Shown in pieces: positions 47,937-57,915 of a stretch of DNA of 64,000 bases. This DNA comes from Phenylobacterium sp. Root700. Lineage in GTDB: Bacteria; Pseudomonadota; Alphaproteobacteria; Caulobacterales; Caulobacteraceae. The notes under the pieces were generated by a model, which searched no databases, was not told the origin of the DNA, and saw nothing but the letters and a program-made list of their open reading frames with translations. The position numbers and the translations under genes are program-made. Position 1 is the first letter of the stretch; every line of letters begins with the position of its first letter. The stretch lies in assembly GCF_001429025.1 (NCBI RefSeq), contig NZ_LMHT01000022.1, positions 62,001-126,000 of the forward strand, read 5' to 3'.

Positions 47937-48541
47937 TGAGTTCTCCGCCACTTAAGCTTGGCTTTTTAGCCTCACGTAACGGCTCCAGCATGCGGGCGTT
48001 GATCGAAGCGATCGAGGCCGGCGATCTGGCCGCCGAGGCCCTGCTGGTGGTCAGCAACAACAAGACGGCCGGGGCGCTGGAATTCGCGGCCACTCACGAC
48101 GTGCCGACCCTGGTCATTCCGACCCAGGCCGACCCGGAGGCCGCCGATGCGCGTCTGTGCGCGGCCATGGACGCGGCCGGTGTCGAGCTGATCGTGGCTT
48201 CGGGCTATCTGCGCCGACTGGGACCCAGGACGCTCGGGCGCTATCGCAACCGGGTCATCAACATTCATCCGGGCGCCCTGCCGGCGTTCGGCGGCGAGGG
48301 CATGTACGGCCGCCGGGTCCATGAGGCGGTGATCGCCGCCGGCGTCGCCGAGAGCGGCGTCACCATCCATGCGGTGGACGAGATCTACGACCACGGTCCT
48401 GTGATCGCGCAGCGTTCGGTTCCGCTCGCGGCTGGCGAGACAGCCGACAGCCTCGAGGCCAAGATCATCGCCCTGGAGCCCGCCTTCTTCGTCGAGACCC
48501 TGCAGCGCATCGCCGGCGGCGACCTGGCCCTGCCGGACTAG
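47936..48541 (+). CDS. purN: Phosphoribosylglycinamide formyltransferase
   Basis: Transfers a formyl group from 10-formyl-THF to GAR in purine synthesis. 201 residues. Catalytic Asn/His in NIHPGALPAFGG, Asp in VDEIYDHGPVI; the phosphate-binding loop reads ASRNGSSM rather than SGxGSN. The ATG overlaps the previous stop (TGATG). A related formyltransferase is possible but less likely. Confidence 0.88.
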   Translation: MSSPPLKLGFLASRNGSSMRALIEAIEAGDLAAEALLVVSNNKTAGALEFAATHDVPTLVIPTQADPEAADARLCAAMDAAGVELIVASGYLRRLGPRTLGRYRNRVINIHPGALPAFGGEGMYGRRVHEAVIAAGVAESGVTIHAVDEIYDHGPVIAQRSVPLAAGETADSLEAKIIALEPAFFVETLQRIAGGDLALPD

Positions 48542-49929
48542 CTGTCGTGCAGCGCCGGCCGTGAGGCGGCCAGAGGCGTGCGGCCAGGCACCGGCAAACG
48601 ATTGCCCGCCGCCATGGCGCGCTTGCCGCCTCGGGCGATCTCCTTGTGCAGGTCGGCCACGTAGGTGTTGAAGTCGACCTGAATGGTATGGCGCTTGGAC
48701 CGGTAGTAGTGGCCCAGATGCGTCGCCTCGTCCTTGACGATGATCTGCGCCATCTCGGCCGGCGAGGGCGGTTGGTAGAGGCCCGCAAGGTAGGCGGCCG
48801 CCAGCTTGGCCTGCTGTTCGGCGAAATTGACCAGGGTCGGTAGCGGCTGGGCCAGGGCCATATAGAAGAGGTTCGGCACGCCGGGTTTCATCATCCGCTT
48901 GAACAGCGGCAGCCGGTGATCGGCGTCCGGAGCCAGCGCCGGATCATCGAAGAACGGGAAGCGCATGTCGTAGCCGGTGGCGAAGATGATCACGTCGACA
49001 TCCTCCACCGTGCCGTCAGCAAAGCGGACCTGATCGCCATCCAGTGCCTCGATGGCCGGCTTGAACTTGATGTCGCCGCAGCCCGCGCGGGTCAGGAACT
49101 CGCCGCTGACCGAGGGATGGGCCTCCAGCGGTTCATGGTCGGGCTTGGGCAGACCATAGTCCTCCATCGCCCCGATGGCCTTCTTGATCACCTTGCGAGC
49201 CAGGGCGAGGCCAAATTTCCGCGGCATCCAGGGCGGCATGGCCGATTTGTCGGCCGGTTTGCCGTTCATGTACTTGGGCAGCACCCAGACCCCGCGCCGC
49301 GCCGAAACCCATAGGGTCTTGGCGATCGGCCGCTGGGCGAGCTCGGAGGCGATATCCATCGCCGAATTGCCCATGCCGACCACGACGACGTTCTTGCCGC
49401 GCATGTCGACGGGATCGAACGGGTCGGAATAGGCGTGGCTATGGAACGCCGCGCCATCGAACTCACCGGGATAGTCCGGAATGCGCGGGCTCCAATGGTG
49501 GCCGTTGCAGACGAAGAGCACGTCATAGACGCGCATCTCGCCGGTCGAGAGCGTGACCTCCCATAGGCCGTCGGCGTTGCGTCGGGCTTTCTCGACCGCC
49601 GTCTCGAAGGTGATCGTCTCGCGCAGCTCGAAATGCTCGACATAGTCCTTGAAGTACTGGTGCAGCTGGGCGTGGTGAGGGAAGTCCGGCCAGTCAGTAG
49701 GAACTGGGAAATCCTCGAACGCCAGGCGCCACTTTGAAGTGTCGATGTGGAGGCTTTCGTAGCAGGCCGACATCCCGTTGGGGTTCTTGTAGTACCAGTT
49801 GCCGCCGATCTCGTCGGAGATCTCGAAGCAATCGTACGGAATGCCGAAATCCTTCAGCCGCTTGGCCGTCGTGAACCCCGAACACCCCGCACCAATGATG
49901 CAGGCTTTGGGCAGACGCGTCTCGGCCAC
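48538..49929 (-). CDS. Flavin-containing monooxygenase
   Basis: 463 residues. FAD motif GAGCSGFTTAKRL, NADPH motif GMGNSAMDIASEL, and the FMO signature FxGxxxHxxxY at FDGAAFHSHAY. Also IGGNWYYKN and ATGYDMRFPFF. Such enzymes oxygenate soft nucleophiles (N, S) or ketones. It converges on purN with a 4-bp overlap. Substrate unknown. Confidence 0.9.
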   Translation of the reverse strand: MAETRLPKACIIGAGCSGFTTAKRLKDFGIPYDCFEISDEIGGNWYYKNPNGMSACYESLHIDTSKWRLAFEDFPVPTDWPDFPHHAQLHQYFKDYVEHFELRETITFETAVEKARRNADGLWEVTLSTGEMRVYDVLFVCNGHHWSPRIPDYPGEFDGAAFHSHAYSDPFDPVDMRGKNVVVVGMGNSAMDIASELAQRPIAKTLWVSARRGVWVLPKYMNGKPADKSAMPPWMPRKFGLALARKVIKKAIGAMEDYGLPKPDHEPLEAHPSVSGEFLTRAGCGDIKFKPAIEALDGDQVRFADGTVEDVDVIIFATGYDMRFPFFDDPALAPDADHRLPLFKRMMKPGVPNLFYMALAQPLPTLVNFAEQQAKLAAAYLAGLYQPPSPAEMAQIIVKDEATHLGHYYRSKRHTIQVDFNTYVADLHKEIARGGKRAMAAGNRLPVPGRTPLAASRPALHDS

Positions 49930-49994
49930 TGGGGCCTCCCTGACTTATCGTTGTTCAGAAAAGCCTAGCAGCCCGTCGCACCCGGTCAAACCGA

Positions 49995-51401
49995 CTAGGC
50001 GTTGTCTTCGGCCAGAGGCCGGACTGCCTTTGCGCCTAACACTCGGTCGAGCAATAGCACCAAGGCCAGCGATCCCCCGGCCAGTGGGAAGATGGTCCCC
50101 AAGCCGATTGTGATCAGGGCGACCGTTCGAAGTCGCAGCGGCTGAAGTTCGCGCGGAGCGCCCAATGCGCCTTTCGGTCGCCGGCGCCACCACATGAGCG
50201 GGCCGGTGATCGACAACATGCTGACGCCCAGGCACGCGATCAGCATGACGATCTGATTGGCGCGCCCGAAATAGTTGCCCATGTGCAGTTGGACGCCCAA
50301 CTCGACCCCCTTGGCCGCCCAGCCGTAGTCGGCGAAGGCCACGTCGCCCAGGACCTGCCCGGAATACTGGTCGATATGGATCGTCCGCTGCCCCTCCGGT
50401 CGGTCCGGATAGGTATAGGCGGTGAAGGCGCCGGTCGGGCCGGACGGCAGAAACAGGCGGTAGGCCGGGTTCATCCCTTCGCGCGCCAGGATGAAGACGG
50501 CCTGGTCGACGCCTATGGCGCCGGGAAGGGCGTCCATGGTCATGCCGGCATGGCCGCCGTGATGTTCCGCGTGAGGGTCGGAGGCCGGCATCGGGGCGTT
50601 CTCGACTGTCCAGGGCGCCTCGCCGAGGGTCTGCCTGATCGTGGCGGCGGGCGGCGCTCCATGCAGCCGATGATTGGCTGGATAGCCGATCCCCGCTGCG
50701 TCGGTCCCTCGCTTCAGGAGATCACCCCAGACATTGGCCCAGGGCAGGCCGGTGACGATCAGGAAGGCGATGAGCAGCGCGGTCCAGAGGCCGGTGACCG
50801 CATGCAAGTCGCGCCAGAACACTCGCCCCTCAGCCTTGAGGCGCGGCAGGATCACGCCCTCCGCCCGCAGTCGCCCGCGCGGCCACCACAGATAGAGGCC
50901 GGTGATCACCAGGATCAGCCCCCAGCAGGCGGCCAATTCGACAATCCCGTCGCCAAACTTGCCGATCATCAGCGAGCCGTGCGCCAGGTCGGCGAAGCCG
51001 ACCAGGGTCTGGGCGTAGACATAGGCGCCCAGCACCGCGCCGGTCCCCGGATCGACATAGACGCGGACAGGCTCGCCGGTCTTCGGGGTCACGAACACCT
51101 GGGCGCTGCGTCCCGGCTCAGTCGGCATGTCGATGCGGGTGGCCGAACCGCCCGGATAGCCCGCCAGCGCGGCGGCGATCAGGACGCTGGTCGGCTGTTG
51201 CTCGGCAGATGTGGCGACCAACCGCTGCGCGGGATGCAGGGCGTCGTTGATCTCGTCGTTGAACAGATAGATCGCGCCCGTCACGGCCAGGATCAGCATG
51301 AAGGGCGCGACCAGCAGCCCGGCGTAGAAATGCCAGCGCCAGATCGTCCGGTAGAGGCCGGCGGGGCCGATGCTGATGCTCTGCGATGTCGTCGTCGCCA
51401 T
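49995..51401 (-). CDS. PepSY-associated membrane protein with His/Met-rich periplasmic loop
   Basis: 468 residues, four or more TM helices with two PepSY-like periplasmic loops: WRWHFYAGLLVAPFMLILAVTG, DLAHGSLMIG, FWRDLHAVTGLWTALLIAFLIVTGLPWANVWGD, and VQLHMGNYFG. These conserved His residues suggest b-type haem, as in ferric/cupric reductase-like partners of TonB receptors. Residues 277-289 (HAEHHGGHAGMTM) are strikingly His/Met-rich, pointing to copper. Starts 2 bp after the receptor gene. Confidence 0.85.
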   Translation of the reverse strand: MATTTSQSISIGPAGLYRTIWRWHFYAGLLVAPFMLILAVTGAIYLFNDEINDALHPAQRLVATSAEQQPTSVLIAAALAGYPGGSATRIDMPTEPGRSAQVFVTPKTGEPVRVYVDPGTGAVLGAYVYAQTLVGFADLAHGSLMIGKFGDGIVELAACWGLILVITGLYLWWPRGRLRAEGVILPRLKAEGRVFWRDLHAVTGLWTALLIAFLIVTGLPWANVWGDLLKRGTDAAGIGYPANHRLHGAPPAATIRQTLGEAPWTVENAPMPASDPHAEHHGGHAGMTMDALPGAIGVDQAVFILAREGMNPAYRLFLPSGPTGAFTAYTYPDRPEGQRTIHIDQYSGQVLGDVAFADYGWAAKGVELGVQLHMGNYFGRANQIVMLIACLGVSMLSITGPLMWWRRRPKGALGAPRELQPLRLRTVALITIGLGTIFPLAGGSLALVLLLDRVLGAKAVRPLAEDNA

Positions 51402-51403
51402 GA

Positions 51404-53569
51404 TCAGAAGCTCCGGACCAGGGTGAGATCGACGCTGCGCGGCGCGCCCAGATAGACCTGGGTCGCGCCATAGCCGGACCAGTCGGCGTAGAGCGTGTCG
51501 AAGAGATTGCGGCCGCGCAGGGTCAGCCGTCCGAACGGCGCGCGCCAGCTCACCTGTGCGTCGACGACGGTCCGGGCCTCGACACGATAGGTGTTGGCGT
51601 TGCTGGTGTAGAAGTCGCCGTCGTAGCGGACCGTGGCGCCGAAGGTCAGCGGCAGGGTCGCCAGGCTGTAATAGGCGCTGAGGTCGAACATCTGCTCGGG
51701 CACATTGGGAGGCCGGTTACCGGCTCGGTCGAGCCCACCGGCCTCGATCAGGGTATCGAATTTGCTCTTGAGCAGCGCGGCGCTGGCGTCGATCCGCAGT
51801 TGGTCGGTGAGGGCGGCGGAGAGCGAAACCTCGACACCCTTGGACGACTGCTCGCCGCCCTGGACGGTCAGCGCCGGATTGGCCGGATCGCGGGTCAGGA
51901 TGTCGTCCTGGGCGATGTGGTAGAGCGCCGCCGTCAGGTCGATGCGGTCGTTCCAGAGGCTGCTCTTGATCCCGACCTCGACGGCGTCGCCGGCGCTGAG
52001 ATCGAACTTGGCGTTGGCCGCATTGAGGAACAGGAAGCTGCTGACTGGAGTCACGGCATGGCTGAACTGGCCGTAGATCTGGGTCTTGGGCGCCAGATCG
52101 TACACCGTGCCGACCCGCCAGGAGATCGGATCATAGGTCTGGCCGAAGGCGGCGGCCGCGCCGGTGTTGAGGTCCAGGGTCCGGCGATCCAGTTTGACAT
52201 GATCATAGCGAACGCCGCCGACCAGCAGCCACCTCGTGGTGAGGTTGAAGGCCTCCTCGGCGAAGATCGCGGCGCTCGTCGCATCGCTGGTCCAGTCGAC
52301 GCGATTGCCGGCGCCCGGGAAGTTGGCGGCCGTAACCTCCGGGAAGCGGCCCCGAAGCGGATTGAAACGGTCGACCGGCGTCGTGGCCCCGAACCGCCGA
52401 TTGGTGACGAAGTGCGTGTCGCTGTACTCGGCGCCGACCGTGAAACGGTTGCGACGCCCGAGCAGCGGGCCATCGAAGGCGGCATAGGCGCGGTCGACCC
52501 AATATTGGTGATCGTGGGCGATCAAGGTCGTGCTGCGGTTCAGCCGGCCGGTGGCCGCGTTGAACGTCACGTCCTCGGAGTTCTTCCAGAGCCGGTCGGC
52601 CGTGTACCACGCCAACTCGTTGGAGAGGGTCCAACGGTCGGAGAGGCGGTAGTCGGCGCGGGCGCGAAGCTGCCAGGAGGTCGAGCTCATCTCCCCGTCG
52701 TCGACATTGTAATTCCGCTTGATCGTCGCTCGGTCGAGCACCAAGCCCTGGCTGTTGCGGATCAGGTTCGAGGGATCACGCGCGAAGGCGGCGGGAACCA
52801 GGGTCGCGCCGAAATAGGCGGTCGAATAGTCGTCGTCATAGTAGTCGCCCGACAGGGTGATCGTCAGGCGTTCCGTCGGCTTCAGCAGCAGGGAGGCCGT
52901 CACCGCCCGGGTGAGCGAGCCGGTGTCGTCCACCCAGCCTGACGAGCGATTCAAGCTGACGTCGGCGCGCAGCGCGACCGTGTCGCTGAGCGCGACATTG
53001 CCGCCCAGTCCGGTGCGCAGAGTGTCGAAACTGCCGATGCTGATCAGCGCCTCACCGTTGGTCTCGCCCAGATGTGCGCGCTTCGGAACCAGGTTGATGG
53101 CGCCGGCCAGAGCGCCTTCGCCGTAGAGCACGGAGGCTGGCCCCTTCAGCACCTCGATCCGCTCGAAATTAAAGGTGTCGAAGTTGCGGATGGAGCTGTT
53201 GGAACCGGTCACCCGCACCCCGTCGAACAGATAGGCGATGGCCGCGCTGGTGAAGCCGCGCATCGAGGTGACGCCGACCGAGCCGGGCAAGGTCCCGCCG
53301 TTAACGCCGGGCGCGGCGTTGAACGCCTCGACGGAGGTGCGCAGGCCCTCGACCTGCATCCGCTGCTGGCCGACGACGTCGAGGGTGGCGGGGGTCTCGC
53401 GATTAGTGAGGCCGAGCCGGTTGGCGGCGGGCGCGGCCTGGTCGAGCGCCAGGGCCGCCGGGCGGCCGGTGACCAGCAGTTCGTCGACGCTGGTCGCGTT
53501 ATCGGCGTAGGCGAGGGCGGGTGAAAAGCAGGCGCCAAGCGCGCTGGCGGCCAGGAGAAGAGATTTCAT
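51404..53569 (-). CDS. TonB-dependent outer-membrane receptor, probably for copper
   Basis: 721 residues from ATG 53569 (AGGA upstream); signal peptide through about residue 23. N-terminal TonB box region DELLVTG, plug domain with FEAFNAAPGV, MRGFTSAAIAYLFDG, and IEVLKGPASVLYGEGALAGAINLVPKR, then a 22-strand barrel ending in VDLTLVRSF. The sequence resembles siderophore receptors. Its neighbours (DUF2946, PCuAC, SCO) suggest copper or a copper chelate instead. Confidence 0.88.
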   Translation of the reverse strand: MKSLLLAASALGACFSPALAYADNATSVDELLVTGRPAALALDQAAPAANRLGLTNRETPATLDVVGQQRMQVEGLRTSVEAFNAAPGVNGGTLPGSVGVTSMRGFTSAAIAYLFDGVRVTGSNSSIRNFDTFNFERIEVLKGPASVLYGEGALAGAINLVPKRAHLGETNGEALISIGSFDTLRTGLGGNVALSDTVALRADVSLNRSSGWVDDTGSLTRAVTASLLLKPTERLTITLSGDYYDDDYSTAYFGATLVPAAFARDPSNLIRNSQGLVLDRATIKRNYNVDDGEMSSTSWQLRARADYRLSDRWTLSNELAWYTADRLWKNSEDVTFNAATGRLNRSTTLIAHDHQYWVDRAYAAFDGPLLGRRNRFTVGAEYSDTHFVTNRRFGATTPVDRFNPLRGRFPEVTAANFPGAGNRVDWTSDATSAAIFAEEAFNLTTRWLLVGGVRYDHVKLDRRTLDLNTGAAAAFGQTYDPISWRVGTVYDLAPKTQIYGQFSHAVTPVSSFLFLNAANAKFDLSAGDAVEVGIKSSLWNDRIDLTAALYHIAQDDILTRDPANPALTVQGGEQSSKGVEVSLSAALTDQLRIDASAALLKSKFDTLIEAGGLDRAGNRPPNVPEQMFDLSAYYSLATLPLTFGATVRYDGDFYTSNANTYRVEARTVVDAQVSWRAPFGRLTLRGRNLFDTLYADWSGYGATQVYLGAPRSVDLTLVRSF

Positions 53570-53634
53570 ACGGGCGTCCTTCGACGGCCGGGCAGGCGCC
53601 GCGGCGGTCGTCATGTCGATGATCTGGATGGAGA

Positions 53635-53650
53635 CCGCGCGGTCGCGCGG
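53635..53650 (-). promoter_or_regulatory. GC hairpin just beyond the second DUF2946 stop
   Basis: CCGCGCG and CGCGCGG form a tight stem 3 nt downstream of the DUF2946 stop codon, 66 bp before the receptor start. Its place next to a proline-rich stall-like C-terminus suggests leader regulation; it is not a typical T-tailed terminator. Confidence 0.4.
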
Positions 53651-53653
53651 CAG

Positions 53654-54034
53654 TCAGATCGACAGGGGAGGCCCACGCGCCGGCGGCGGCGGTGCGCAAA
53701 GCCCGAGCCCCGGTGTCGCCGCGTAGGGGCGCGGCAGGAGCGGCTGATAAACCGCGATCGGCAGATACAGTCGGTGGGCGTCGCTCGGCGGCTGCGCCCC
53801 GACGCCATGACCGGCGAAGACGCAGGGAGCGTCATGGTCGCTCGTCGGCGTGTCGTGGGTCGCGCCGCCGGGCTCGATCTCGACGGCTCCCTGGGCGGTG
53901 CAGATGACGATGGCGAACGGCAGGTCGTTCGTTCGCGGCGCGACCATGTAGCCGGCGGGGATCGCCACCTTCAGGGCGAGCGCCAGCAAGGCCAGCGTCA
54001 GGATGACGCCGCGCCGTACTTGCACCCAAGCCAT
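53654..54034 (-). CDS. DUF2946 protein, candidate copper-responsive upstream ORF
   Basis: 126 residues from MAWVQVRR (ATG 54034). One N-terminal TM segment (GVILTLALLALALKVAIPAGYM) with basic flank, then LPFAIVICTAQGAVEIEPG, a His/Asp-rich stretch (THDTPTSDHDAPC), CVFAGHG and a proline-rich tail ending ARGPPLSI. The Cys/His set could bind copper(I). A related DUF2946 ORF, CruR of Bordetella, is known to control a downstream TonB receptor/PepSY pair by copper-sensitive translation. Here it directly precedes the receptor. Confidence 0.82.
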   Translation of the reverse strand: MAWVQVRRGVILTLALLALALKVAIPAGYMVAPRTNDLPFAIVICTAQGAVEIEPGGATHDTPTSDHDAPCVFAGHGVGAQPPSDAHRLYLPIAVYQPLLPRPYAATPGLGLCAPPPPARGPPLSI

Positions 54035-54059
54035 GAAGCCGCCGCCCCGCATGACGCCC

Positions 54060-54656
54060 CTAGCCCTGCGTCGCCAGTTTCTTCAGCTGGGCCACGACCC
54101 GCTCGTGCGGCGTGCCGTATCCGATGGGCTCGACGAAGCGGCCCTTACGGTCGAACAGGTAGATCGCCGACGAGTGGTCGACGGTGTAGCGGCCGCCCTC
54201 CAGCGGGACCTTCTTGTAGAAGACCCGATAGGCCTTCGCAGCTTGGGCGATAGCCTCCGGCGTGCCGGTGAAACCCTGGATGCGGGGATCGAAGCTCGAC
54301 AGGTAGAGCTTCATCTGCTCGGGCGTATCGCGCTCCGGGTCGACCGAGACGATGACGACATTGAGCTTGTCGGCGTCGCGGCCGAGGGCCTTCATCGCCG
54401 CGCTCAGTTCGGTAAGCGTGGTCGGGCAGACCTCCGGACAATAGGTGAAGCCGAAGAACACCACGCTCGGCTTGCCGAGCAGCGCCTTCTCCGTCACCGC
54501 CCGCCCTTGAGTGTCGAGGAGTTGGAAGGACCCGCCGATGTCCACGGCGGCGACGGTCGCCACCGGCGCCTGCCTGAGCTGGACGAAGGCGATCGCCCCC
54601 ATCAACGCGACGGCGAGCGCGGCCAGCCCGATCAGGATGGGAAGCCGCCGGCTCAT
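54060..54656 (-). CDS. SCO/SenC family copper chaperone
   Basis: 198 residues, N-terminal TM anchor, then a periplasmic thioredoxin-like fold. The copper site is CPEVC (FGFTYCPEVCPTTL) with the distal His in YTVDHSS. VSVDPERDTPEQM is the family signature. SCO proteins deliver copper to the CuA centre of cytochrome oxidases. Overlaps the PCuAC stop by 4 bp. Confidence 0.92.
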   Translation of the reverse strand: MSRRLPILIGLAALAVALMGAIAFVQLRQAPVATVAAVDIGGSFQLLDTQGRAVTEKALLGKPSVVFFGFTYCPEVCPTTLTELSAAMKALGRDADKLNVVIVSVDPERDTPEQMKLYLSSFDPRIQGFTGTPEAIAQAAKAYRVFYKKVPLEGGRYTVDHSSAIYLFDRKGRFVEPIGYGTPHERVVAQLKKLATQG

Positions 54657-55123
54657 TGGTCGTGGCTCATGCCGTGGTCCATCTGATGATCCATCACGGC
54701 TGGGCGGATCGGCGCCTGGATGCTCTGGGACGGGGCCTTCTCGAACTTAAAGGTCAGGGGGACCTCGCCGCCGATGGCCAGGGCCTGTTTCGGGCCGATG
54801 ATCATCAAGTGCTCGCCGCCGGAGGCCAGCGCGACTGCCTTTCCGGCCGGCAGGGGCAGACCGCCTTCGAGCTTGCGCATCCGCATCACGCCGCCGGCCA
54901 TGTCCATGCTGTGGATCTCCGCGCGCTCGGCGACGGCGGTCTCCACCGCCACGAGCCGATCCTCCGCGCTGGCGGTCAGGGTGACGTAGCAGCCGCCGGT
55001 CATGGCGCCGGCCGGCGCCGCGCGGCACCAGGCGTCGGTCACGGCGACCGTCGGAGGGGCCTGCGGGGCGCGATCGCAGGCGGCGACCAGGACGAGGGGA
55101 ATAAGGGCGACGAGAGCTTTCAT
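54653..55123 (-). CDS. PCuAC-family periplasmic copper chaperone
   Basis: 156 residues with lipobox VAAC (Cys16). The H(M)x10Mx21HxM copper(I) site is seen as EIHSMDMAGGVMRM and GGEHLMIIG. The last residues MDHQMDHGMSHDQ add a His/Met-rich tail. PCuAC supplies copper to SCO or cytochrome oxidase. AGGAG lies 9 nt upstream of the start. Begins about 143 bp after the first DUF2946 gene. Confidence 0.92.
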   Translation of the reverse strand: MKALVALIPLVLVAACDRAPQAPPTVAVTDAWCRAAPAGAMTGGCYVTLTASAEDRLVAVETAVAERAEIHSMDMAGGVMRMRKLEGGLPLPAGKAVALASGGEHLMIIGPKQALAIGGEVPLTFKFEKAPSQSIQAPIRPAVMDHQMDHGMSHDQ

Positions 55124-55247
55124 GGAAGCAGGCTCCTGGCTGAAGAGGCGCGGGCGGCTCTATGAGCGACCGCGAAGGATCAAACGCGATAGGGAAGGGT
55201 GCGCAGCATCTCGCGCCGCGCAACAGCGGCGCACACATCTGCGCGCT

Positions 55248-55261
55248 CGGCCGCGAGGCCG
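55248..55261 (-). promoter_or_regulatory. GC hairpin just beyond the first DUF2946 stop
   Basis: CGGCC-tcgc-GGCCG stem 5 nt downstream of the DUF2946 stop codon (minus strand), in the 143-bp leader before the PCuAC gene. Mirrors the hairpin after the second DUF2946 gene. Confidence 0.4.
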
Positions 55262-55266
55262 GCGTC

Positions 55267-55695
55267 CTAGATCAGCAGGGTTGGCGGCCCGCGGGCAGGT
55301 AGCGGCGGCGCGGCGAGGCCGCGACCGGGCGCGAGGTGGACCACCTGGATCGCCGCCGGCGCACGATAGGCCACGAACTCAACGTCGCGCGCGTCCAGCA
55401 GATTGGGTGGCGGAGCGGAGGTGGCGTGCCCCGCAAAGGCGCAGGGGCTGTCGTGAGCGCTCTTGGTGTCCGAGCCGTGATCGTCCTGGCTCTGTGAGGT
55501 CGCGGTCTCGCCCGGCTGGATGACGACTGCGCCTTGAGCGGTGCAGAGGACAAGGGCGAACGGCAGGTCATTGACCGGCGCTCTGGCGGTCATGAATCCC
55601 GCCGGGATCATGATCTTGATCGCAAGCGCCAAGGCGGCCAGCACCATGAAGGTGCTGCGCGGCGTCGGTCTGCGATGATCGAGAGCCCGGGTCAC
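55267..55695 (-). CDS. DUF2946 protein, first of two, heading the copper cluster
   Basis: 142 residues. Same layout as its paralogue at 53654: TM segment (STFMVLAALALAIKIMIPAGFM), LPFALVLCTAQGAVVIQPGE, His/Asp-rich DDHGSDTKSAHDSPCAFAGHA, and a C-terminal PARGPPTLLI. It is the first gene of the cluster and lies immediately upstream of the PCuAC-SCO pair. Candidate copper-sensing leader ORF by analogy with CruR. Confidence 0.8.
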   Translation of the reverse strand: MTRALDHRRPTPRSTFMVLAALALAIKIMIPAGFMTARAPVNDLPFALVLCTAQGAVVIQPGETATSQSQDDHGSDTKSAHDSPCAFAGHATSAPPPNLLDARDVEFVAYRAPAAIQVVHLAPGRGLAAPPLPARGPPTLLI

Positions 55696-55741
55696 GCCCC
55701 TGCCTTAGGCCAGGTTCCGGCGATTGTGGAGCCTTTTCGCG

Positions 55742-56875
55742 TCAGACCTCTCGCCCGCCGATCCAGGTGCGGCGCGCCGTCAGCTCGGCGCCCAGCAAGG
55801 TGAGGTCGGCTCTGAAGCCTGGCGCAATCTGGCCCACCTCTGCATCAAGCCCCAGGAAGGCGGCAGGGTTGGTCGAGGCCATCGCCGCGGCGTCGGCCAG
55901 GTCGAGGCCGGTCAATTGAACGGCGTTACGGACCGCGCTGGCCATGTCGAGGTCCGAGCCGGCCAGCGTCCCGTTCTCGTCGACGCAGACCCCGTCGACC
56001 ACCCGAATCGGCCGGCCCTGGATCGTGAAGGTCTTGTCGACCATCCCGACGCTGGGCATGGCGTCGGTGACCAGCATGAAGCGGTCGTGGCGCTTGGCCC
56101 TGAAGGCGATACGCAAGGCGGCGGGATGGATGTGCCGGCCGTCGATGATGACGCCGCACCAGCTATCTTGGTGATCCAGCGCGGCGCCGACCGCGCCTGG
56201 CTCACGGCTGGCCAGCGGCGACATGGCGTTGAACAGGTGGGTGAAGCCAGTGACCCCAGCGCCCAGGGCCTCCATGAGGCGATCATAGGTGGCGTTGGTG
56301 TGCCCCGCGGCGACCGTGACCCCGGCGGCGGCCAGCCGGCCGATCATTTCCGGCGTCGTGGTTTCCGGCGCCAGAGTGACCAGCGTCTTGCCATGCCGCG
56401 CCGAGGTCAGGAGCTGGAGGGACGCCTCGTCCAGCGTCCTGAACTTCGAGGCGTCATGAACGCCCTTGCGCCGCTCGCTCAGGAACGGTCCCTCGATATG
56501 GATGCCCAGGACGCCCGGCACGCCGGCCTCGATGGCTTCGTCGACGGCGGCGATCGCCTTGGCGACAGTCGCCAGATCGTCGCTGATCAGGGTCGGCAGG
56601 AAACCGGTGACGCCATATTTGCGATGCGCCGCGCCGATGGTGGCGATGGTGTCGGCGTTCGGAGCGTCGTTGAACAGCAGTCCGCCGCCGCCGTTGACCT
56701 GGGTGTCGATAAAGCCGGGGACGAGGAACCCGCCCTCCATATCGACCTGTTCGGCGCCCGCGATGGCGTCTGCCTCGGCGCCCAAGGCGACGATGCGGCC
56801 GCCCTCGACCAGGACGGTGGCGGGCGTGAACCGCCCATCGGTCAGAACCTGACCATTGACGAAAGCTACGGCCAT
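55742..56875 (-). CDS. nagA: N-acetylglucosamine-6-phosphate deacetylase
   Basis: 377 residues. Metal-dependent amidohydrolase: PGFIDTQVNGGGGLLFND, GIHIEGPFLSERRKGVHD, AGHTNATYD, THLFNAMSPLASREPG, and LVTDAMPSVGM. It removes acetate from GlcNAc-6-P for entry to glycolysis. The ATG overlaps the SIS-gene stop by one base. Confidence 0.95.
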   Translation of the reverse strand: MAVAFVNGQVLTDGRFTPATVLVEGGRIVALGAEADAIAGAEQVDMEGGFLVPGFIDTQVNGGGGLLFNDAPNADTIATIGAAHRKYGVTGFLPTLISDDLATVAKAIAAVDEAIEAGVPGVLGIHIEGPFLSERRKGVHDASKFRTLDEASLQLLTSARHGKTLVTLAPETTTPEMIGRLAAAGVTVAAGHTNATYDRLMEALGAGVTGFTHLFNAMSPLASREPGAVGAALDHQDSWCGVIIDGRHIHPAALRIAFRAKRHDRFMLVTDAMPSVGMVDKTFTIQGRPIRVVDGVCVDENGTLAGSDLDMASAVRNAVQLTGLDLADAAAMASTNPAAFLGLDAEVGQIAPGFRADLTLLGAELTARRTWIGGREV

Positions 56876-57915
56876 CAGATGGTCTCGGTCACCTTGTTCA
56901 GGTGCGGTGGCTTGTCGGGGTCGTGACCGCGCAGAATCGAGAGCGCGTTGGCCATCCGATAGAAGCTCTGAATCCGCGCGATCGGTTCTAGGTTCGGGTT
57001 GGTGCTGACGGTCGGCAGGGCGTCGAATCCCTCGCCGCCGCCAGCCAGCATGATGTCGGCGCCGCGCGTCGCCAGGCTGCGGGCCAAGGCGACGACGCCG
57101 GCCGCGCTCTGATCATCCTGGGCGAAGATCAGGACCGGAAACCCCTCTTGCACCAAGGCCATCGGTCCATGCAGGACCTCGGCGGCGCTAAATGCTTCGG
57201 CGTGCAGCCCGCAGGTCTCCTTGAACTTCAGCGCCGCTTCCTGGGCGATCCCGAAGCCGACGCCACGGCCCAGCACATAGAGGTTGTGAGCGGCCTTTAG
57301 ACGGTCGGAGGCGGGGCTCCAATCGAGCGCCCAGGCCTGGCTCAGAACGCGTGGCAATTCATCCAACGCCTGCGTCAGCGCCGCATCCTCGGTCCAGGCG
57401 GCGACCAACTGGGCGATGGCGGCCAGGGCGGCGATGTAGGATTTTGTGGCCGCGACGCTGATCTCCGGCCCGGCGTGCAGCGGCAGGACCCGGTCGGCCA
57501 GCGCCGCCAGGGGCGAGTTCTCGTCATTGACCAGGGCCACGACCAGCGCGCCGGCCTGCTTGGCGGCTTCGACCGCGGCCAGCAGGTCGGGACTCTTTCC
57601 CGACTGGGAGATCGCCAGATAAAGCACGCCCTCCAGCTTGGGCTCCGTCGCGTAGACCGAGCTGACCGACAGCGCCGCCGAGGAGGTGATGACGCCCGTG
57701 CCGGTTTCGATCAGATACTTGGCGTAGGTCGCGGCGTGGTCGGACGATCCCCGGGCGCAGGTGACGACCGCCCGCGGGGGATTGGCCCGCAATTCCGCGC
57801 CCAGGGCCTGGGCCGCCGATCTGTTGGCGGTCAACAACCGGGCCACGACGGCCGGGGCTTCGGCCGCCTCGCGAAACATCTGCGTGGTCTCCGGGGCGGG
57901 GGATTTCAGTGACAA
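56875..57915 (-). CDS. SIS-domain glucosamine-6-phosphate deaminase (NagB-II type)
   Basis: 346 residues from TTG 57915, with GGAG upstream; ATG 57879 is an alternative. Two SIS domains: CARGSSDHAATYAKYLIE and LAISQSGKSPDLLAAV, then LYVLGRGVGFGIAQEAALKFKETCGLHAEAFSAAEVLHGPMAL. This is the GlmS-isomerase-like deaminase used in place of classical NagB in many alphaproteobacterial nag loci. Follows nagR and precedes nagA. Confidence 0.88.
   Translation of the reverse strand: MSLKSPAPETTQMFREAAEAPAVVARLLTANRSAAQALGAELRANPPRAVVTCARGSSDHAATYAKYLIETGTGVITSSAALSVSSVYATEPKLEGVLYLAISQSGKSPDLLAAVEAAKQAGALVVALVNDENSPLAALADRVLPLHAGPEISVAATKSYIAALAAIAQLVAAWTEDAALTQALDELPRVLSQAWALDWSPASDRLKAAHNLYVLGRGVGFGIAQEAALKFKETCGLHAEAFSAAEVLHGPMALVQEGFPVLIFAQDDQSAAGVVALARSLATRGADIMLAGGGEGFDALPTVSTNPNLEPIARIQSFYRMANALSILRGHDPDKPPHLNKVTETI

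Follow-up and report, generated by a model that had tools for sequence, protein, structure and literature searches.

Two CruR-like DUF2946 leader ORFs in one copper gene cluster of Phenylobacterium sp. Root700, candidate attenuators in series

Introduction

The cruR-crtA-crpH operon of Bordetella pertussis (PMC9426467, PMC12914433, PMC13038864) is the closest described counterpart of the locus presented here. On its leader CruR (bp2923), copper relieves a ribosome arrest and Rho-dependent transcription termination follows, rather than the copper-dependent translation named in an earlier note on this DNA; a CXXC motif located 45 residues from the tail motif is required for copper control (PMC9426467). 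The arrest on CruR was shown by toeprinting and is abolished by an Arg-to-Ala exchange, and RGPP is a published arrest motif with the highest arrest stability in several contexts, so that the earlier note's reference to stalling at RxPP-type motifs is well founded (PMC12992588). RAPP/RGPP arrest-peptide uORFs were surveyed across 52,895 genomes; the words "tandem" and "multiple uORF" are absent from the main text of that survey, and no treatment of two arrest ORFs per operon was found in its passages (PMC12992588). CutF of Rhodobacter capsulatus is a further DUF2946 leader, with a CxxxC motif and a position before a multicopper oxidase gene, for which copper enhances the arrest and a stem masks the ribosome-binding site (PMC9973294). 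In Bradyrhizobium japonicum a cruR homologue heads a cytochrome oxidase biogenesis operon (cited in PMC9426467).

Here, a copper gene cluster with two DUF2946 ORFs, termed A and B, was analysed within the window, i.e. the whole stretch of 64,000 nucleotides of Phenylobacterium sp. Root700. The DUF2946 copper-leader type as such is already known, because both ORFs resemble CruR, their tail is a published arrest motif and CrtA is the best solved relative of the receptor encoded in the cluster. Less ordinary are the internal position of B, the stacking of two cassettes, the recurrence of internal DUF2946 ORFs in other genomes and a subfamily free of CXXC.

Results and discussion

Organization of the gene cluster

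On the minus strand the genes follow each other in the order DUF2946-A, PCuAC, SCO, DUF2946-B, CrtA-type TonB receptor and PepSY_TM (Table 1), which agrees with the two paralogues described in the earlier note, one before PCuAC-SCO and the other before the TonB receptor-PepSY pair. PCuAC and sco overlap, and the receptor and PepSY genes are spaced by 2 nt; the gap to the next gene measures 143 nt after A and 84 nt after B, and only 46 nt lie between nagA and A. When the receptor was compared with the PDB, 9RVQ, identified as CrtA, the copper receptor of B. pertussis, was the top of 24 matches at E <= 1e-10 with 278.9 bits, the next match reaching 137.1 bits. The gene order of block B is that of cruR-crtA-crpH, and the 84-nt gap behind B is shorter than the 162 nt behind CruR.

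Block A resembles the B. japonicum operon in that a DUF2946 leader precedes oxidase-biogenesis genes induced by copper starvation, with the difference that one leader is mentioned there instead of two. The oxidase-biogenesis genes behind the B. japonicum cruR homologue are presumably PCuAC and SCO genes.

Table 1. Features of the copper gene cluster (positions within the window)
Feature	Position	Strand	Remark
DUF2946-A, CruR-like leader ORF, GTG start, 142 aa, before PCuAC-SCO	55267..55695	-	
RGPP codons of A, predicted arrest site, then T-L-L-I-stop	55282..55293	-	arrest predicted from PMC12992588
First hairpin of A-PCuAC gap	55248..55261	-	begins 5 nt past A stop
Second hairpin of A-PCuAC gap	55215..55230	-	
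C/T-rich, G-poor tract past A-gap hairpins, possible Rho loading site	55187..55200	-	picked out by eye
PCuAC periplasmic copper chaperone	54653..55123	-	Pfam match
SCO1/SenC protein	54060..54656	-	start overlaps PCuAC stop (ATGA)
DUF2946-B, second CruR-like leader ORF, cluster-internal, before TonB receptor-PepSY	53654..54034	-	alternative start 54052
RGPP codons of B, then L-S-I-stop	53666..53677	-	
Hairpin after B	53634..53651	-	begins 2 nt past B stop
TonB-dependent receptor	51404..53569	-	best PDB match 9RVQ, CrtA of B. pertussis
PepSY_TM protein	49995..51401	-	Pfam family also of CrpH (Bordetella operon)
nagA-A gap, possible promoter or leader of A	55696..55741	-	conserved stretch in 4 window-type loci

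Family membership and motifs of the two leaders

Both ORFs match Pfam DUF2946 just above its cut-off of 23.7 bits (A, 24.2 bits; B, 24.1 bits), and they are the only matches in the genome at E <= 0.001. CTAQG, a His/Asp-rich stretch, CxFAGH and an ARGPP tail were found in A and in B, as the earlier note had it; its tail lengths of three or five residues need correction, since RGPP is followed by 4 residues in A (TLLI) and by 3 in B (LSI). For B the ATG at 54034 is probably the start rather than 54052, two orthologues having an ATG at the same place. The CxF site lies 46 (A) and 45 (B) residues before RGPP, within a subfamily range of 44-48. The resemblance to CruR claimed at the outset is thus borne out by family, by an RxPP motif a few residues from the end, by a distance of about 45 residues from the sensor site to the tail and by the copper genes downstream. 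The published survey also describes RGPP near the C-terminus of small exported proteins encoded upstream of TonB receptor, PCu(A)C and PepSY genes (PMC12992588).

In a rough gene prediction for the window (57 genes) RGPP occurs three times (0.57 expected from composition), and two of these occurrences are the C-termini of A and B. In 180 control ORFs (142 distinct), R[AG]PP was located in the last 12 residues of one only, a PepSY gene in L076. With respect to the conservation of the tail, which the earlier note had made a test of its proposal, ARGPP is kept in 7/7 leaders (4 A, 3 B) from clusters of the window type, whereas the Arg is missing from 22 of 69 complete sequences in the wider subfamily; these carry TGPP (15), QAPP (3), QGPP (2), HAPP (1) or IGPP (1).

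In place of the CXXC of CruR, A and B carry CxFA-x-H and an invariant distant Cys, and their tail reads RGPP instead of RAPP. In A the distant Cys is residue 51, and the Cys and His of the CxF site are residues 85 and 90. CXXC is absent from A (CAFA) and from B (CVFA), and none of the 69 complete subfamily members has its fourth-position Cys. When the best 30 loci by DUF2946 score were inspected, CXXC was present in 26, and the other four belong to the A/B subfamily. CutF shares with A and B the DUF2946 family, a Pro-rich C-terminus, a copper-linked operon and a stem-loop in the gap; it differs in having CxxxC where A and B have CxFAGH, and neither A nor B precedes a multicopper oxidase gene (PMC9973294).

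Most of A is unstructured in the structure model (pLDDT 61, pTM 0.24), as could be explained by a nascent-chain sensor or by a poor model, with a confident N-terminal helix at residues 12-29 (block means of pLDDT 85-88); the metal site was not placeable in so poor a model. The alignment underlying this model comprised the 2 window leaders and 53 of the 57 named-locus leaders (L079, L081, L083 and L089 omitted). The hydrophobic N-terminal segment formed by this helix, together with the conserved Cys and His, would suit a role as small, exported copper binders that work at the protein level, the RGPP tail being incidental. Such a role is very improbable in view of the conserved tail, its near-fixed distance from the CxF site and the predicted disorder. 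Additionally, among the matches listed, with two candidates scored per genome, a DUF2946 ORF immediately precedes a close receptor in 6/6 genomes, and complementation of CruR from another locus failed (PMC9426467).

Relation of A to B

By BLASTP, A and B share 53% identity over only 72 residues, and 50% across the multiple alignment. In a leader tree from 127 columns (69 of 70 leaders, truncated L061 omitted; deep forks unsure), A and most Caulobacter leaders fall into a 50-row clade (95/88), to which B and its two orthologues (support 91/98) do not belong. A recent tandem duplication was rejected on the grounds of the short alignment and the separate placement in the tree, and the paralogy of A and B appears to be old.

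It is hardly credible that only one of them is functional and the other a decaying copy. A locus without B does exist (L092), which also lacks the receptor and most of the PepSY gene but retains A-PCuAC-SCO; here B disappeared along with the genes that it heads, as would fit a functional unit. B is open and retains the ligand residues and ARGPP in the window, L090 and L093 at 61-63% identity.

Position of B and recurring arrays

B begins 25 nt past sco, or 7 nt if the alternative start is used, and in L090 and L093 an ATG likewise lies 25 nt past sco (4 nt if GTG is used). Same-strand DUF2946 arrays recur in other Pseudomonadota genomes, for example as DUF2946-PCuAC-DUF2946-TonB receptor-PepSY, and the pair is not unique to this genome. 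In 11 of 14 array loci the downstream DUF2946 ORF overlaps the previous ORF or lies <=25 nt from it, which is not the case in L112; the junction spacing is ambiguous in L095 and L125. Stop-start overlaps at the internal DUF2946 ORF were seen in L091, L094, L110, L111 and L124. These array counts are lower bounds, taken by eye from only some scored candidates per genome (the window's own genome shows one of its two leaders in the array listings), with some genomes shared between two of the listings, and ORF borders in the other loci come from simple scripts instead of annotation. Many array genomes are fragmented assemblies, several of them metagenome bins. In L095, a contig of 3 kb, the two leaders are separated by a shortened receptor-like ORF, and the receptor of L093/L115 contains one in-frame TAG. 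The internal DUF2946 ORFs of several genomes run against the published position of such leaders as systematically first.

Cassettes of both kinds were also found standing alone (L096, L100; L099, L108). The apparent age of the paralogy between A and B and the occurrence of each cassette by itself make the window cluster look like two ready-made cassettes stacked. In L099 and L108 the standalone B-type cassette opens a unit of its own that follows a divergent ORF, and a promoter of B could have accompanied the cassette. B would then be transcribed from inside sco, and two units would be under separate copper control, as proposed in the earlier note. This arrangement is unlikely. The spacing between sco and B leaves little room for a promoter in the window or in L090 and L093, and stop-start overlaps are found in the five arrays named above. 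A scan of 49800-56100 yielded no sigma-70-type promoter, only 0.5 being expected in shuffles, and it was blind to other promoter types. Since B follows sco so closely, two switches in series on one transcript are probably present instead of separate control of the two blocks.

Hairpins and signals in the leader gaps

The hairpins that the earlier note had described past both stops are present, with offsets and borders corrected as in Table 1. The 40 nt past the leader stops fold better than those past neighbouring genes used as controls (mean z of -1.11 for 68 of 70 leaders, the two without 40 nt of downstream DNA being omitted, vs -0.26 for 142 controls), also after clustering at 60% identity (-1.17 for 19 leaders vs -0.36 for 31 controls, p = 0.011). 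Across four orthologues the first hairpin of the A gap kept 19/20 base-pair cells with no pair changed on both sides, and the second 20/20 with one two-sided change, in L093; the combined value of 39/40 cells with one such change was as high in 143 of 500 shuffles, and the stems are thus not confirmed by covariation. Past the stop of the B orthologues in L090 and L093, hairpins of other sequence begin after 2 and 4 nt.

Intrinsic terminators were considered and rejected; the leader hairpins lack a U-run. In 49800-56100 three intrinsic terminator-like sites were predicted (2.1 expected in shuffles), none of them within the two leader gaps. One of them (53533-53549, minus strand) covers the first receptor codons about 105 nt past the B stop, and its T-run is missing from the alignment in L090 and L093. 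A C-over-G excess (C>G bubble), examined as a sign of Rho-dependent termination, is found around DUF2946 stops, with a mean maximum of 23.1% in 68 of 70 leaders vs 13.0% in 64 PCuAC/SCO genes; Pro codons account for part of it, and it is modest in the window itself (A, 12.1 in the 3' half and 7.0 in the gap; B, 7.9 and 11.9; receptor gene, 6.7), and many other bubbles of equal height occur elsewhere in the cluster. A search for known RNA families in 49800-57000 returned one sub-threshold match on the opposite strand inside nagA (22.3 bits; gathering 40). A shared element upstream of A was looked for and rejected, exact 8-base pieces occurring in 4 of 70 leaders.

The hairpins directly past both stops would also be compatible with a mechanism of the CutF type, in which arrest opens a stem that hides the next gene's ribosome-binding site; control would then be translational, possibly with the opposite copper sign, and could likewise be arranged in series. 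CutF belongs to the DUF2946 Pfam family too (PMC9973294). A weak CTCC/GGAG pairing that covers the ribosome-binding site of PCuAC could be drawn by eye in 3 of 4 loci, the window not among them. We nevertheless consider this mechanism rather unlikely, since the ribosome-binding sites of PCuAC and the receptor are located tens of nt downstream of the stop-proximal hairpins and are not covered by them, and neither CxxxC nor a multicopper oxidase is found here. Chaperone and importer genes would rather fit the starvation-on logic of CruR.

A serial model of copper control

It appears reasonably probable that A and B are arrest-peptide leaders of the CruR type, which act one after the other on a single transcript as attenuators under copper control. 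During copper scarcity, the ribosome on A would stall at RGPP, transcription would continue, and PCuAC and SCO would be made. Once transcription has passed sco, B would be translated and a second ribosome would stall at its RGPP, allowing the CrtA-type receptor and the PepSY_TM protein to be made. Copper may bind the nascent chain and relieve the arrest; the ribosome would leave, and transcription would stop after A, after B or after both, most likely by Rho. The uptake block would need both switches and the chaperone block only the first, so that import would be shut off more tightly or in a graded manner.

As judged from sequence comparison, the serial model is favoured by the DUF2946 matches with copper genes behind each ORF, the CruR-like spacing, the gene order of block B, the C-over-G excess, the recurring internal DUF2946 ORFs, the ATG spacing in L090/L093, the PCuAC-SCO overlap, the short receptor-PepSY gap and the standalone cassettes. 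The missing CXXC, the loss of the Arg in about a third of the subfamily, the modest C-over-G signal, covariation within the range of shuffles and the short gap behind B argue against this model, as does the closeness of A to nagA, which bears on the promoter of the whole unit.

Implications

More tentatively, copper operons in several lineages of Pseudomonadota might be built from stacked cassettes with translationally coupled internal DUF2946 attenuators, downstream genes needing more switches, which would order chaperone and import functions along a copper gradient. In this extension the nascent chain of the Caulobacteraceae subfamily would read copper through a Cys...CxFxxH ligand set instead of CXXC, and the natural tails RGPP, TGPP and QAPP would set the strength of the arrest.

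The two leaders of the present cluster differ from CruR in number and, for the second, in its internal rather than operon-first position. The literature searches revealed no serial arrangement of two such leaders. If the switches are serial, one transcript would carry two metal-sensing nascent chains, which, if true, would qualify the published view that such leaders systematically occupy the first position of an operon. With its natural RGPP and TGPP variants, the CXXC-free subfamily may help to separate the residues for copper sensing from those for arrest strength.

Organization of the copper cluster

Two DUF2946 leader ORFs, A and B, are located in one minus-strand copper cluster; at E <= 0.001, no other DUF2946 match occurs in the whole 4.58 Mb genome. 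They are best read as two attenuators in series, active at low copper, of the type of CruR, the arrest-peptide leader of Bordetella pertussis, and the analysis makes this reading fairly probable. A single transcript would carry A and then B, with ribosome arrest, copper response and Rho dependence all proposed.

Features of the copper cluster in minus-strand transcription order
Feature	Window coordinates	Strand	Remark
nagA	56875-55742	-	first of the listed genes
nagA-A gap	55696-55741		contains conserved stretch
DUF2946-A	55695-55267	-	Pfam match, leader ORF
PCuAC	55123-54653	-	Pfam
SCO	54656-54060	-	Pfam
DUF2946-B	54034 or 54052 to 53654	-	Pfam match, leader ORF, two possible starts
TonB-dependent receptor	53569-51404	-	Pfam
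PepSY_TM	51401-49995	-	Pfam
Further ORF	48538-49929	-	65 nt behind PepSY

PCuAC is joined to SCO by an ATGA overlap, and receptor and PepSY_TM are 2 nt apart. The further ORF, which we take to be flavin monooxygenase-like, is present at the same place in the loci L090, L092 and L093 and might be part of the cluster transcript. A short stretch of the nagA-A gap is conserved across these three and the window (together, the window-type clusters), and its exact 8-base pieces were absent upstream of the other 66 leaders of the subfamily, i.e. the CXXC-free DUF2946 leaders of Caulobacteraceae related to A and B. The best named matches to the two leaders were Phenylobacterium bins and the unclassified bin GS10. 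In the scanned cluster region, neither a sigma-70-like promoter nor an Rfam element above threshold was found, and terminator-like sites were not above chance. Parallel control, in which the two blocks are controlled separately, would require a promoter inside sco and is considered unlikely.

Putative sensor and tail of the leader ORFs

Both leaders have a hydrophobic N-terminus and a Pro-rich C-terminal end; between these lie CTAQG, an H/D-rich stretch and CxFAGH. The ARGPP tails described in the earlier note were confirmed for both, with four residues beyond the motif in A and three in B instead of the three or five counted there. A rough gene prediction for the window gave 57 genes; RGPP occurs three times among them, twice as the C-termini of A and B. 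The distance from the CxF site to RGPP (46 residues in A, 45 in B) is like that of CruR, where 45 residues intervene, a number kept within one or two in >2000 DUF2946 proteins (Roy et al., PMC9426467). RGPP and RAPP are described as causing ribosome arrest in several contexts, toeprinting of CruR located the arrest with both Pro codons occupying the P and A sites, and the genes behind surveyed RGPP/RAPP ORFs include TonB receptors, PCu(A)C and PepSY (PMC12992588). Tail, spacing, arrest motif and downstream gene types thus place both halves of the finding in a known class.

The collection of 89 leaders was reduced to 70 distinct ones, of which 69 are complete and one, L061, is truncated by the end of its contig. 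In the complete leaders the second Cys of CXXC is replaced by A (62), S (3), T (3) or V (1), whereas the F inside the Cys motif and a distant Cys (context CT in 66, CS in 3) are invariant. Among the 30 best-scoring DUF2946 loci of one search, 26 had CXXC and the other four belonged to this subfamily. Copper control by CruR requires CXXC and not its semiconserved Cys (PMC9426467), so that copper sensing in the subfamily, which lacks the second Cys, would have to rely on the remaining ligands and is a proposal.

The tails of the 70 leaders were RGPP (47), TGPP (15), QAPP (3), QGPP (2), HAPP (1), IGPP (1) and none (1, L061). ARGPP was retained in all seven leaders of window-type clusters (four A, three B), so that the motif loss named in the earlier note as an adverse outcome did not occur among them; outside these clusters, some Caulobacter included, leaders without the Arg were found. 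CruR arrest depends on this Arg (PMC12992588). The TGPP leaders, whose remaining tail is mostly alike, belong to Caulobacter and one unclassified bin (L051, L053, L055-L057, L060, L062, L070) and to L068, L072, L074-L076, L079 and L080. A PepSY_TM-like ORF (L076:10905-12344) ends in KRAPPH and was the sole control ORF with such a tail.

RNA features behind the leader stops

A hairpin lies behind each stop, beginning after 5 nt in A and 2 nt in B; the earlier note gave 3-5 nt for both. Orthologue hairpins begin 5 nt after the A stop, in the same alignment columns, and 2-4 nt after the B stop; stem covariation in the four sequences was no better than in shuffles. Subfamily-wide, the 40 nt 3' of leader stops fold more stably than the 40 nt behind neighbouring genes. 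A C-over-G excess surrounds the leader stops, as at the Rho terminator of CruR (PMC9426467), though Pro codons contribute to it and it is modest in the window itself. Control of the CutF type (PMC9973294), by which the ribosome-binding site of the next gene is unmasked, fits less well than attenuators in series and seems rather improbable.

Origin of the two cassettes

In a tree of the 69 leaders, B and two orthologues formed one clade outside the clade with A and most Caulobacter leaders, and a recent duplication is therefore unlikely. Lone cassettes of either kind exist, namely DUF2946-PCuAC-SCO (L096, L100) and, behind divergent ORFs, DUF2946-receptor-PepSY-like (L099, L108). L092 retains nagA-A-PCuAC-SCO, while B and the receptor are absent and PepSY is reduced to a remnant behind sco at the deletion site (L092:8000-8460); the genes of the second block were lost together.

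The best solved relative of the receptor is 9RVQ (278.9 bits; next 137.1 bits), which is CrtA of the B. pertussis cruR-crtA-crpH operon (PMC9426467, PMC12914433, PMC13038864). Of 388 Caulobacteraceae genomes, six contain a close CrtA-type receptor, and in each of the six a DUF2946 match of the subfamily ends 75-124 nt upstream of it. G176 has a seventh receptor match, more distant (47%), with no upstream DUF2946 among the matches listed.

Internal leaders and arrays in other genomes

DUF2946 leaders are described as 'systematically' first in the operon, and in other places of that paper as first 'in most cases' and 'overwhelmingly' (Roy et al., PMC9426467), whereas B is not first: it starts 25 (or 7) nt behind sco, and the two complete orthologous clusters (L090, L093) likewise have an ATG 25 nt behind sco. 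Same-strand DUF2946 neighbours (~5 kb), counted by eye as lower bounds, occur in at least 5 of the 133 Caulobacteraceae genomes that matched the subfamily among 390 searched (G000, G262, G268, G371, G374), at least 3 of the 101 alphaproteobacterial genomes that matched the Pfam family among 385 (G440, G655, G769) and at least 5 of the 50 Pseudomonadota genomes with a match among 239 (G881, G933, G936, G948, G982).

Gene orders of selected arrays
Locus	Order	Basis
L121	DUF2946-PCuAC-DUF2946-TonB receptor-PepSY (window order without SCO)	Pfam
L122	DUF2946-PCuAC-DUF2946-PepSY-TonB receptor	Pfam
L111	DUF2946-PCuAC-(unassigned)-SCO-DUF2946-DUF1775-CopC/CopD	Pfam; PCuAC and SCO by similarity to window
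L110	DUF2946-TonB-DUF2946-TonB receptor	Pfam
L124	DUF2946-PepSY-PCuAC-DUF2946-(unassigned)-DUF2946	Pfam

The junction was close in 11 of 14 array loci examined, not close in L112 and ambiguous in L095 and L125, the latter with a hairpin within the gap. The downstream leader overlaps the stop of PepSY (L091, L094), TonB (L110) or PCuAC (L124), overlaps that of SCO in L111 if GTG is used (otherwise 11 nt behind), and begins 11-24 nt behind the previous ORF in L121, L122 and L123. G936 and G948 each carry three consecutive same-strand DUF2946 ORFs: in G936 (L124:1-14001) they lie among PepSY and PCuAC genes, with the third leader 283 nt behind the previous ORF, and in G948 (L123:1-18001) among genes for TonB receptor, DsrE and PCuAC. 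A second array type was observed in two Phenylobacterium bins also holding the window-type or deleted cluster (L042/L094, L045/L091), with the order DUF2946-receptor-PepSY-DUF2946, followed by receptor-PCuAC in L091 and by the contig end in L094; in this type, the stop of PepSY and the ATG of the second leader share bases (TGATG).

Some leaders of L121, L122 and L124 end in RASP and two of L123 in AAPP, not RAPP, and the second leader of L110 differs from other leaders in that 18 residues follow its RAPP. In L121, L122 and L124, first leaders combine RASP with CWCC or no CXXC, and second leaders RAPP with CGYC or CAYC; judged by these motifs, the first and second switch of an array may be unequal in strength or in how they respond to metal.

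The CruR-type arrest-peptide leader is already known as a kind. A search of the open-access literature on DUF2946 and CruR, on arrest peptides in tandem and on copper-related stalling in Phenylobacterium found neither serial internal leaders nor a CXXC-free sensor. Relative to that literature, the new elements would be the serial, internal placement of the leaders and the putative CXXC-free sensor. The TGPP leaders, with Thr in place of Arg, offer a natural test of the need for Arg.
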